Shown here piece by piece: positions 18,688-50,145 of a stretch of 64,000 nucleotides of DNA. Positions within the stretch are counted from its first letter, which is position 1, and every line of letters begins with the position of its first letter. The translations under genes were made by a program, and so were the position numbers. The stretch spans positions 1,364,001-1,428,000 of the forward strand of contig NZ_JACHWJ010000001.1 in assembly GCF_014191305.1 (NCBI RefSeq). Reading direction: 5' to 3'. The notes under the pieces are model-generated. The model had not been told where the DNA came from. It saw nothing but the letters and a program-made list of their open reading frames with translations, and ran no database searches. This DNA comes from Pseudoclavibacter helvolus. Lineage in GTDB: Bacteria; Actinomycetota; Actinomycetes; Actinomycetales; Microbacteriaceae.

Positions 18688-18708
18688 TTAGAAGTCCCAG
18701 TACTCGTC
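18688..18708. repeat. Left attachment-site repeat (nrdF 3' end)
   Basis: TTAGAAGTCCCAGT-A-CTCGTC. It matches 50125-50145 in direct orientation at 20 of 21 bases. On the minus strand it encodes the tail DEYWDF plus TAA, equivalent to DEDWDF plus TAA of the intact nrdF. Similarity ends abruptly on both sides, as expected of att sites. Confidence 0.75.
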
Positions 18709-18860
18709 ACCACCCGCGTGATTTCGCGGATTCTCGGCAGTTATAGAGTTGTCGTGCCCTCAGCGTGCCACTGTGGAATGGGCTTCGTGTCCCGCGCTGT
18801 CCAGCGGCGGGGTGGGACACTTTCAAGGGTAGTCGCGCATGGTTCCCCGGGCAACGAGAC
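18709..18860. other. Left end of island, unidentified
   Basis: Short stretch between the left repeat and the first IS. It carries a pair of GTGTCCC/GGGACAC inverted motifs near 18788-18820 that could be an old IS end. No gene seen. Confidence 0.4.
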
Positions 18861-19391
18861 GGCGTACCTTGCGTATATTGATCGCGTAGCCTAAGTCGTG
18901 CCTCACATACTTTGATCGCGTACTTCTACGCTGAACGAGTATGAACAAGGGTGTGGTGTCAGTGGCGACACGAATCGAAATCACCAAACAGTTGAAACAG
19001 GCGTACACGACCGCGGCGAAGTCCGAGAAGTCCGAAATTCTGGACCAGTTCTGCGCAACTACCGGGGTGTCACGCGTCACGGCCAGACGCTACCTCACCG
19101 ACCCGAACCTCGGGGCGAAGAACGTCACCCGGATCGACCGCAGACACCACCGACCGACCAAATACTCGGCCGCTTCCAGGCGCGTGCTGGTGTGGCTGTG
19201 GCGGGTCATGATGTACCCGTGCGGGAAGTACATGCAGCAGATGCTCCCCGAATGGATTCCCCGGCTCGAAGCCCATCACGAACTCGTGTATGGCGAGCAC
19301 GACTACACGTCTGAGGTGCGAGCCGAGCTGCTGCACATGTCTGCCGCGACCATTGACCGGTACTTACGTGAACACCGTCGGGCCCTCGAAC
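18861..19391 (+). mobile_element. Integrase-core IS, copy A, 3' truncated
   Basis: The left end (GGCGTACCTTGCGTATATTG) and the first part of the transposase are identical to copies B (35688) and C (42347). Two copies of a TTGATCGCGTA motif lie in the first 80 bp, before the transposase start. The element is cut off at 19391 where an IS3 element begins. Confidence 0.85.
18941..19391 (+). pseudogene. Integrase-core transposase, N-terminal part (copy A)
   Basis: About 150 codons of a transposase that would be 425 residues when whole (see copy B). The HTH part contains EILDQFCATTGVSRVTARRYL, and it ends at RRALEL, where the IS3 inverted repeat starts. The DDE catalytic domain is missing, so it is inactive. 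It differs from copy B by Thr instead of Lys in QAYTTAAK and matches copy C. Confidence 0.85.
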
Positions 19392-19428
19392 TGATTTGGC
19401 CTGGGTTTAGTTCCGACCGGTTTGTCCG

Positions 19429-20067
19429 TTACCGGATGAGTTCCGGCACCGGTTCAGTGTCAGCGTAGTACGCCGCTTCCACTTCTGCAGGGGTGCGCAT
19501 ATCGAGTTCCCCATGCAAACGTTCGTTGTTCCACCACCACACGTACTTCAACGTGGCGAATTCAACCTGCTCGACCGTTCTCCAGGGTCCTTGCTGCCGG
19601 ATAAGTTCAGCCTTGTAGAGCGCGTTCACTGCTTCAGCCATCGAATTGTCGTAGCTATCGCCGACCGTCCCGGTTGACGGGATCGCGCCGAGCTCAGCGA
19701 CCCGGTTCGTGTAGACCATCGACATGTAGTTCGAGCCGTGATCGCTGTGATGTACGAGCCCCTCAAGACTGCCGCCGGCCTGCCATGCTGCCATCTCGAG
19801 GGCTTGTAACGGCAACACTTCAGCCTTCAGCGTCGCAGCTACGTTCCAGCCCACGATCCGACGCGAGTACACGTCAGTTACGAACGACACATATGCGAAC
19901 CCAGACCACGTCGCGACGTATGTGATGTCGACGACCCAGAGCCGCTTGGGAGCTGTCGCAGTGAAGTTCCGGTTGACGAGATCACCTGGCAGCCGGTTTG
20001 CCGGGTCACTCTTCGTCGTAAAAGCCTGCCGAGAACGTCGCACGCCCCGCAATCCAGCGAGTTTCAT
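19429..20067 (-). pseudogene. IS3 'a' orfB transposase, C-terminal part
   Basis: DDE integrase core of an IS3-type transposase: D in WVVDITYV, D in HHSDHGSNY and E in DNSMAEAVNALYK. It ends TEPVPELIR. The N-terminal part is at 21527-21807, separated by ISL3 copy 1 inserted in codons for MKLA. Removing the ISL3 and one copy of its 8-bp duplication restores one frame. Confidence 0.88.
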
Positions 20068-48734: not shown

Positions 48735-49761
48735 TATCCCCACCGGGTGTTCGAGAGCGGGATGCTCCCCCAACGGTCGGCGGGAAGTACCGGCGCCTTC
48801 GCATCGGACGAAACGTAGTCGTCCAAGTGCTGCTGCAGTCGATCAATCATGAGCTTCGGGATGCTGAGGGATCGCCTACCAGCCTCGCTCTTCAGGTCGG
48901 TGTAGCCACCGGTGTTGGCGTTGAGCTGACGTCGCACATGCAAGTGGCGCTTCCGTCGTCGTGCCACTCGATGTCACGACGCTGCAGACCGAGGCACTCA
49001 CCCCGGCGCAGCTGACACCATGCCGCGAGCAGCACCGCCATAGCCCATTGATCTGGAACCGCCTCGTACAGTGCTTCAACCTGTATGGGATTTGCAACGT
49101 CTTCACCCGCGTCGTGGTCTGCGTCGTGTCTCACCGACTCTTGCCGCGGTACCGACACGTTTGGCGCCGCGGGGATGATGCCGTCTCGTGCTGCCTGCCG
49201 AAGGATCATCATGAGCACGATGAGCACCGGCCTCGTGATGCCGTTGAACTTCGAGTTCGGATTCAGCGGTGCGGGGATCTGGTCAAGCCGATCCGTCATC
49301 ACCTTGATGCGGGCGGCGTCGATCTCACGCACCGGAGTGTTTCGGAACTCTGGAATGAGATAGCCGGTGACCTTCCCCTGGTACGAGCGCACCGTCCCAA
49401 CCGCCCGCTTCTTACCGCTGCGATTAGGTTCGGTACGGATCATTTCAAGCCAACGTTTGGAGTACTCCTCGAAGCCCAACGACTGCGCCTGTTCGACTGC
49501 CAGCTCGGCTTCAAGCTTGGCTGCGATCTCCTCCGGTGGCTCCCACAGCCCCCGCGCCATCTTCGTCTGCACCCCGGCCAGCCAGGTGCGGGCATCCGTT
49601 TTCGTGAGAAACGTGAGCGGCTTATCCTGATCAGTTCTAGCCGTGTAGGTCGTTCCGTCTGGTCCTGGGTAACGGACCTGCCACCGGCCGGAGGGAAGCT
49701 TTCGCAGCCTTCCCCATGCTTCGCGTTTTGCTGCGGCGTTGCTCTGCGTCGTGGTACTCAT
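48735..49761 (-). pseudogene. Tyrosine integrase, N-terminal part with frameshift
   Basis: From ATG 49761: an arm-binding region (RKLPSGRWQVRYPGPDGTTY), the core-binding SAM-like domain (ARTWLAGVQTKMARGLW, later TVRSYQGKVTGYLIP) and the first catalytic block ending AAWCQLRRGECLGLQRRDIEW with the catalytic Arg. Near 48943-48945 one base appears missing: the frame shifts from GSATCMCD to the expected HVRRQLNANTGGY and then KSEAGRRSLSIPKLM. It continues to NTRWGY at the IS3 'b' edge. With the C-terminal part at 45699 the parent protein was about 430 residues. It is doubly broken, so the island cannot excise with its own enzyme. Confidence 0.9.
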
Positions 49762-50050
49762 GATGCCCTCCCATGGACTCGAACGGACTCCTGTGGGCCG
49801 TCGTGCCCCTTCGTGCCCCTGGCGCCGAGACAGGCTCTAGATCCGCCTAATTCAGCGGATCTGAAGGCCTTCTCCACCAGCCGAAGGGCACGTTGGGGCA
49901 CGACCTGGAGGGCACGCAAACCAGAAATTCGGGTAGGCGAGCACCTCCGCTCCCGTGTGGAAGGTGGGCGCGTGCCCCCTACGTGCCTCTCTGAATGGGT
50001 ATTCCTGTTCATCTCTGTTCTCCTCTGTCTTGTTGACTGGAGACACGAAA
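49762..50050. other. Iterated GGGCACG motifs between integrase and nrdF
   Basis: TCGTGCCCCT occurs twice in tandem (49801-49820), and the complementary GGGCACG recurs at about 49885, 49894 and 49909, with further GTGCC copies near 49974-49987. No gene is seen. Its position beside the integrase start and the right repeat suits arm-type integrase or Xis binding sites. Confidence 0.5.
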
Positions 50051-50088
50051 ACGCCCCTGATCTGCGAAAATTCGCGGATCAGGGGCGT
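50051..50088. terminator. nrdF terminator (island-borne)
   Basis: Hairpin ACGCCCCTGATCTGCGAA pairs with TTCGCGGATCAGGGGCGT (one G-T pair), loop 2 nt. It lies 36 bp beyond the nrdF stop on the minus strand. In the island model this replaces the original terminator now at 18619-18664. Confidence 0.8.
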
Positions 50089-50124
50089 GAACAGGTATTT
50101 ACCTGGGGCCTCTAGGAAGAAATC

Positions 50125-50145
50125 TTAGAAGTCCCAGTCCTCGTC
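50125..50145. repeat. Right attachment-site repeat (nrdF 3' end)
   Basis: TTAGAAGTCCCAGT-C-CTCGTC, a direct repeat of 18688-18708 with one mismatch. It contains the nrdF stop codon and last six codons (DEDWDF). Confidence 0.75.

Follow-up and report, generated by a model that had tools for sequence, protein, structure and literature searches.

The last codons of nrdF, the gene for the small subunit of class Ib ribonucleotide reductase, occur twice, 31 kb apart, in a 64,000-nucleotide stretch of the Pseudoclavibacter helvolus genome (contig NZ_JACHWJ010000001.1, positions 1,364,001 to 1,428,000; called the window here, with positions counted from its first letter). How did the DNA between the two copies come to lie there, and how did nrdF keep its end? 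Our answer, held with high confidence, is that the 31-kb segment is a decayed integrative element, inserted site-specifically at the nrdF 3' end by a tyrosine integrase from a subfamily dedicated to this site, and that a hairpin of the element took the place of the native hairpin behind the gene. The features at the two junctions are as follows (strand in parentheses; G and L numbers are genomes and loci).

50125..51108 (-), nrdF, class Ib ribonucleotide reductase small subunit, complete, ending DEDWDF-stop; 98-100% identity in four same-genus genomes, whose tails were read
50125..50145 (-), right attachment (att) core spanning the nrdF tail and stop; exchange probably inside 50125-50138 (ACTGGGACTTCTAA)
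50052..50087 (-), hairpin of the element right after nrdF (16-bp stem and TTTT), presumed to serve as its replacement terminator; covarying across 37 distinct sequences
18709..18831 (-), left element arm; blastn identity 88.8% to G080 (18686-18810) and 89.0% to G119 (18687-18831)
18688..18708 (-), left att core, an orphan tail with the element-type TAC (Tyr) codon; exchange probably inside 18688-18701; same TAC core and arm in G080, inverted in G119
18619..18664 (-), the hairpin native to nrdF, presumably its terminator, left stranded when the element inserted; G001, G004, G006, and G007 have the same hairpin immediately after nrdF
17492..18025 (-), DUF6328 membrane protein of the left host flank, with its G006 homologue close behind nrdF

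Repeat cores and the unoccupied site

The two 21-bp cores are identical at 20 of 21 positions and are the sole matches, at up to three mismatches, in the whole 3.84-Mb genome. Given equal base composition, ~1e-4 chance matches of 20/21 to a given 21-mer are expected per genome; together, the count and the expectation rule out a chance repeat. The left copy consists of the nrdF tail only, and from 18709 on the sequence is that of the element arm, which recurs beside an orphan core in Mycetocola reblochoni (G080). In G119 (L065/L066), the left arm and core are inverted and lie ~8.4 kb from the right core. A preliminary description of the window had reported the direct repeat over the nrdF tail and stop, with a tail-only left copy, and its coordinates and degree of identity were borne out.

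Genomes of the same genus that lack the island show the site before insertion. We used window positions 11801-18708 as the query and aligned them behind nrdF of these genomes. In G006, the nrdF stop is followed by ACCCGCG and then by the hairpin found beside the left core of the window, and the same kind of hairpin stands at that place in G001, G004, and G007. The left flank aligns behind nrdF over 6,733 bp in G001 (85.4% identity), 6,621 bp in G004 (85.4%), and 2,871 bp plus one further block in G007 (74.7%). In G006 it aligns over 97 bp at the core (90.7%) and then in further blocks, two of which have ~7 kb of other DNA between them. These four represent the pre-insertion order among nine other same-genus genomes. 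A left-flank block lies 5.6 kb behind nrdF in G002 and 2.4 kb behind it in G009, not adjacent in either; the sequence behind nrdF differs in G005; and in G003 and G008 nrdF is followed by an element-like hairpin, but the flank examined contains no integrase. We had considered G008, G003, and G032 as integrase-occupied sites and set them aside, the first two for this lack of an integrase and G032 as a case judged by eye.

The preliminary description had taken the orphan hairpin for the displaced terminator of nrdF and had expected the two flanks to adjoin in relatives without the island. The hairpin at 18619-18664 does sit directly behind nrdF in four such genomes, its terminator function being presumed. 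Adjacency was found directly in the same four, whereas the part of the left flank 2.4-5.6 kb off in G002 and G009 is a weak form of the arrangement that the description had named as speaking against insertion.

Probable point of exchange

The C-terminal tail of NrdF is required for docking to NrdE, and it is within this tail that the orphan copy carries Tyr and the resident gene Asp. The orphan core of M. reblochoni shares both its arm and its TAC codon with the left copy in the window, and the inverted copy in G119 agrees. Because Tyr sits in the orphan copy and is common to the Mycetocola orphan end, we assign the Tyr variant to the att sequence of the element and not to a new nrdF tail. The preliminary description had the element bringing its own changed docking peptide, which is largely wrong, as Tyr lies in the orphan att core and nrdF kept the host Asp.

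Upstream of the right core, nrdF is 86.0% identical to that of M. reblochoni over the last 900 nt, and over the first 1200 nt behind the core the identity is 99.8%. In seven second cores lying less than 10 kb from an integrase, some of which may be tandem junctions, ACTGGG is preceded by T, A, A, G, A, A, and A; nrdF has G at that position. Assuming no later mutation, we infer that the exchange took place inside ACTGGGACTTCTAA, with nrdF retaining Asp. By this assignment, only a part of ACTGGGACTTCTAA can be derived from the element, and the resident nrdF carries the host Asp.

In the mechanism that we propose, an nrdF-dedicated tyrosine integrase would have recombined the att core of the element (xACTGGGACTTCTRR) with the same sequence at the end of the host nrdF. 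Strand exchange inside the 14 bp would leave nrdF coding for the same protein, with host residues up to the Asp codon followed by part of the shared core. The insertion would have moved the native hairpin 31 kb away, and the element's own hairpin, ~40 nt behind the stop, would have replaced it. The integrase is now broken by a frame change and an insertion sequence (IS), and the order of events given here is a suggested one.

An integrase subfamily at nrdF

We searched 398 genomes of the family with the first integrase frame (48892-49761) and found 12 further integrase places in nine other genomes. The core adjoins the integrase in all 12, and the nrdF body was recognized by motif in 9 of them. 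One more (L059, the same place as L088; Gulosibacter chungangensis) lies behind a divergent nrdF paralogue 64% identical to NrdF of the window. In another G. chungangensis case (G393; L067/L068 at C16:173153 and C16:194037), two nrdF elements seem to follow one another in tandem, with the right end of the second joined to the second core of the first.

A wide scan of 84,980 species genomes yielded 90 loci, 80 of which were kept. In 44 loci the integrase is at least 60% identical to that of M. reblochoni, and the core lies upstream in 44/44 (pattern with up to three substitutions); these loci are not independent, as hosts are related, L082, L088, and L114 are one genome, and some belong to genomes of the family sample. 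The core is within 600 bp upstream in 43 of them; the other, L101 (Brevibacterium sp. CS2), has it at -1336, with a transposase-like insert between. The match covers fewer than 400 residues in 14/44 (broken genes or contig ends). By tblastn, the nrdF body was found in 41; L090 and L114 have the tails DEYWDF and DENWDF but lack a preceding nrdF, consistent with tandem elements, and at L087 nrdF is represented only by a piece at the contig edge. In contrast, neither core nor nrdF was found at any of the 36 loci with 27-35% identity. Because the core is upstream in 44/44 at one level of identity and in 0/36 at the other, the subfamily is, as far as sequence comparison can tell, tied to the nrdF site.

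The hosts are Leucobacter, Gulosibacter, Microbacterium, Mycetocola, Pseudoclavibacter, Brevibacterium, Nesterenkonia, Arthrobacter, Demequina, Promicromonospora, Sediminivirga, Tessaracoccus, and other Micrococcales and actinobacteria. Fulvimarina is an alphaproteobacterium; a contig with that label (L111) has the subfamily integrase and an nrdF tail 94% identical to that of the window, and is possibly misbinned. The integrase occurs (E <= 1e-80) in 9/396 genomes of an order sample, our own included. Seven of the eight other matches there have nrdF and the core beside them, and the eighth (L201, 54% identity) is without them. In a phylum sample, 1/396 genomes matched, that of the window. Relatives of the integrase were absent from viral_contigs; phage records gave 240 matches, all below 60% identity (best 32%, Actinomyces phage xhp1), and plasmid records four, with a best identity of 31%.

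Element-borne hairpin

The hairpin behind nrdF was aligned from 43 loci and the window, which gave 38 sequences after removal of identical stretches; tests were made on 37 distinct rows. An unguided fold recovers the hairpin. Within the 16-bp stem, 96.8% of cells are paired (85.7 in shuffled alignments), 76 cells are changed on both sides (24.3 shuffled), and the covariation is 0.386 (0.172 shuffled), values that 0 of 500 shuffles reached in each case. Slid stem controls pair at 26-48%, a comparison that favours the stem because it was taken from one of the aligned rows. The element hairpin is probably the replacement terminator, judging by these compensatory changes and its place behind nrdF. 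Of the earlier proposal that nrdF now uses a terminator inside the island, the hairpin itself stands, with covariation, and termination is the presumed part. The broader proposal of a site-specific insertion that rebuilds the nrdF 3' end gained support from the unoccupied relatives, the many parallel insertions, and the covariation of the new hairpin.

Scars of such insertions were sought in the 398 family genomes with a covariance model of core plus hairpin, scoring the best 10 candidates per genome. Scores of at least 60 bits occur in 26 genomes, a line drawn after the list had been seen and one without a clean gap, since some candidates reach 45-57 bits; sites known to be unoccupied have lower scores (39.3 bits in G006). 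Ten of the 26 are genomes with an integrase match, several of which also supplied sequences to the model, and G044 has an integrase fragment at a contig edge. The other 15 are without an integrase within a flank of up to 1.5 kb, and one of these, G221, also lacks an adjoining nrdF. At L165, L166, L170, L177, L180-L183, and others, an element-type hairpin stands behind nrdF and the flank examined lacks an integrase; these are possible scars of lost elements.

Integrase and cargo of the island

The integrase next to the right core is broken.

48940..49755 (-), tyrosine integrase piece 1, matching residues 1-272 of its M. reblochoni homologue at 99.3% identity and followed by a frame change
48734..48943 (-), tyrosine integrase piece 2, in a different frame and corresponding to residues 272-341; 100% identity over 70 residues
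45975..48733 (no strand assigned), IS insertion that interrupts the integrase, made up of pieces of IS3-type OrfA and OrfB and an ISL3 element lying among these
45702..45974 (-), tyrosine integrase piece 3 (C-terminal part), split off by the IS insertion; 98.9% identity over 91 residues to the Leucobacter salsicius copy
45248..45427 (+), DprA-like remnant (last 60 residues), convergent with the integrase; 96.7% identity

Tyrosine recombinases are marked by the motif R...HxxR...H...Y, and these residues are visible in the aligned copy. Phage_integrase (PF00589) is matched by 7/7 uninterrupted homologues; the first frame of the window integrase, taken alone, has no Pfam match. The full DprA-like copy of M. 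reblochoni (L062:3227-4210) matches Pfam DNA_processg_A and is likewise convergent with the integrase, an arrangement of the elements most similar to that of the window. Such a gene directly faces the integrase in 10 of the 44 nrdF loci and lies farther in (5-6 kb, 50% identity) in three more.

With its integrase in three pieces, the island lacks the intact integrase/excision module of an integrative and conjugative element (ICE), and because of this breakage it is probably immobile, stuck at its site. Among 22 island open reading frames (ORFs) scanned with Pfam or NCBIfam, there was no excisionase and no phage structural gene. The preliminary description had placed a tyrosine integrase and an excisionase-like gene, the latter without coordinates, near the right repeat. 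The integrase is present there, though in three pieces; the small helix-turn-helix ORF at 48377-48661, a candidate for the excisionase, matches HTH_Tnp_1 and is the OrfA of an IS.

The remaining identified genes of the island are cargo and transposases.

24446..24973 (-), YflT-domain (heat-induced stress) protein
25729..26604 (-), alpha/beta hydrolase
26604..28487 (-), cNMP-binding and thioredoxin-reductase-like protein; below the NCBIfam cut-off for TRX_reduct
29043..31670 (-), clpB; 61% identity to the chromosomal copy
31661..31972 (-), MerR-type regulator, HspR/CbpM-like; Pfam MerR_2, with HspR and CbpM models below cut-off
31969..32856 (-), DnaJ/CbpA-type co-chaperone; below NCBIfam cut-offs
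32860..33399 (-), grpE-like; below NCBIfam cut-offs
33418..35283 (-), dnaK; 58% identity to the other copy in the genome
20092..21411 (-), ISL3-family transposase by Pfam/NCBIfam; near-identical copies at 22274-23593 (+) and 46654-47973 (-) by repeat
36201-37517 (+) and 43908-45227 (+), ISL3-family transposases ~80% alike to the 20092 copy, identified by Pfam/NCBIfam and by repeat, respectively
38335..40472 (+), IS21 transposase and IstB helper

DnaK and ClpB of the island are divergent extra copies, with 58% and 61% identity to their nearest counterparts elsewhere in the genome, and the cargo may have a role in stress tolerance. Plasmids of Streptomyces and Rhodococcus carry similar chaperone sets; the best rows show 76-80% identity and cover 24-44% of the query. 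The IS load comprises five ISL3 copies (three of them near-identical), an IS21, IS3-type pieces, and an IS fragment present three times (18851, 35678, and 42337).

Relation to known elements

The preliminary description took nrdF for an undescribed integration site. This is wrong, since the Brevibacterium Lanthipeptide Island (BreLI) of cheese bacteria has been published, in passages of reports from 2017 and 2019, as an ICE at the 3' end of the class Ib ribonucleotide reductase beta gene with a 12-bp repeat, AGAAGTCCCAGT (PMC5719810, PMC6579920). Its excision as a circle was confirmed there by polymerase chain reaction (PCR) products and their sequence. Both borders of our island read AGAAGTCCCAGT, so that the 12-bp repeat is contained in the 21-bp core; the target gene end is also the same, and the integrase adjoins the core. 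As described in those passages, BreLI differs in having 96-100 kb, conjugation and lanthipeptide genes, and demonstrated excision, whereas the window island has 31 kb, chaperone cargo, and a broken integrase, and the scanned ORFs include no conjugation gene. In two BreLI-carrier strains (L099 and L100), the integrases that follow nrdF are 70% identical to the M. reblochoni copy, a comparison made by strain and not by locus tag with the published BreLI integrase; L099 falls in the nrdF clade of our tree (see below), and L100 is not among the tree rows. The BreLI passages mention no wider family, hairpin, or exchange point (PMC5719810, PMC6579920).

The element of M. reblochoni REB411 (G080; L062 and L078) is closer to ours, with an integrase 99% identical over residues 1-272 and the same Tyr-type orphan core. 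It differs in being 9.8 kb from core to core, with D-lactate dehydrogenase cargo and an uninterrupted integrase frame. RUSTI, likewise an integrative element and found in cheese actinobacteria, is reported as an ICE at tRNA-Leu, not nrdF, with excision shown by PCR (PMC5526665).

New here is the spread of the integrase subfamily and of its sisters at lpd and RNA genes, which extends the BreLI site from Brevibacterium and Corynebacterium to an element family with varied cargo in Microbacteriaceae and other Actinomycetota. The exchange is narrowed to 14 bp, and the uninterrupted homologues are candidate integrases for this conserved core. The locus also shows an element that occupies the last codons of an essential gene yet restores its coding end and, apparently, its terminator.

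Alternative readings

Several observations weigh against a single site-specific arrival of the island with its own terminator. Over 60-100 nt, the left arm of the window element matches that of M. reblochoni at only 87-90% identity, as against 99.8% at the right ends, so the two ends may differ in history; an exchange of modules may account for the divergence of the arms. One of the seven second cores, L112, retains the G before ACTGGG. The chaperone cargo had no blastn match of at least 120 nt in nine other element bodies, and it may therefore have been acquired separately. Conjugation genes were absent from the 22 ORFs scanned (the remaining, mostly small, ORFs being outside the scan), and the island may for this reason never have been self-transmissible. 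Two weaker measures of the stem stand closer to the shuffled values: two-sided changes fall in 8/16 pairs (5.0 shuffled, 4/500 as high), and further pair types number 19 (16.9 shuffled, 33/500). A simple terminator scan lists neither the element nor the native hairpin, which is why we speak of termination as presumed.

Some of these points, together with the five ISL3 and three IS-fragment copies spread through the island, would fit an arrival in two events, in which a shorter nrdF element came first, the chaperone cassette followed by IS transposition or recombination, and the island never moved as a unit. We regard this as an even call. The M. reblochoni element, of only 9.8 kb and with other cargo, and the lack of DNA matches to the cargo in nine other bodies speak for it; however, its order of events is conjectural, the IS copies could postdate the cargo, and the mechanism of integration is left uncontradicted. 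The many IS copies could also suggest that the repeat itself arose by IS rearrangement or partial duplication of nrdF. This we find hardly credible, because even the transposase ORFs nearest to the cores (18941 and 48377) do not adjoin them and a single core is found in the stretches around the four unoccupied sites; the same core upstream of the integrase in 44/44 relatives and the element-type bases of the orphan copy led us to reject it. Near-perfect inverted repeats can serve as protein sites, and with the negative terminator scan this leaves some room for the element hairpin being a protein-binding or other DNA structure. Such a role is improbable given the compensatory changes through the stem, the T-rich stretches after it, its position directly behind nrdF in place of the native hairpin, and the same kind of hairpin behind lpd at L201. 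Site-specific insertion at nrdF, with a replacement hairpin, is the reading that we retain.

Sister integrases and a possible change of target

The integrase at L201 (2-1380, G662; 54% identity) lies behind the dihydrolipoyl dehydrogenase gene lpd (TIGR01350, above cut-off), with a similar GC-rich hairpin ~40 nt behind the lpd stop. A search of that genome gave no second lpd-type core at up to three mismatches, so integration at L201 rests on position and hairpin. The next relatives of the L201 integrase, at eight places in five genomes (L205-L212; 41-45% identity), all lie beside an RNA gene, tRNA-Ser in five and transfer-messenger RNA (tmRNA) in three.

A tree of 58 integrases groups the 21 nrdF rows in one clade (100/99), places the lpd row as its sister (100/98), and joins the tRNA-Ser/tmRNA clade (100/100) at the next node (98/95), so that these sisters share one lineage with the nrdF integrases and differ in target gene. 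The tree is midpoint-rooted for display, its bootstraps are rough and not settled, and it omits 23 of the 44 nrdF rows and 8 of the 36 distant rows (duplicates, or frames outside 380-520 amino acids); L125 and L145 have very long branches and are possibly misread frames. The branching, based on one lpd row, suggests a shift from the ends of RNA genes to those of protein genes.

We lean slightly toward a more general account, in which one actinobacterial integrase lineage moved from RNA-gene 3' ends (tRNA-Ser and tmRNA) to lpd and then nrdF. The users of protein genes would carry a replacement terminator by the att core, restoring the ends of both coding and transcription, and scars left by decay would make the presumed nrdF terminator mobile-element-derived in a share of Microbacteriaceae. 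With sisters at lpd and at RNA genes, a switch of target inside a single lineage becomes testable. A tRNA gene lies within -1000 to +2600 of the match in 30 of the 36 distant loci, compared with none of the 44 nrdF loci.

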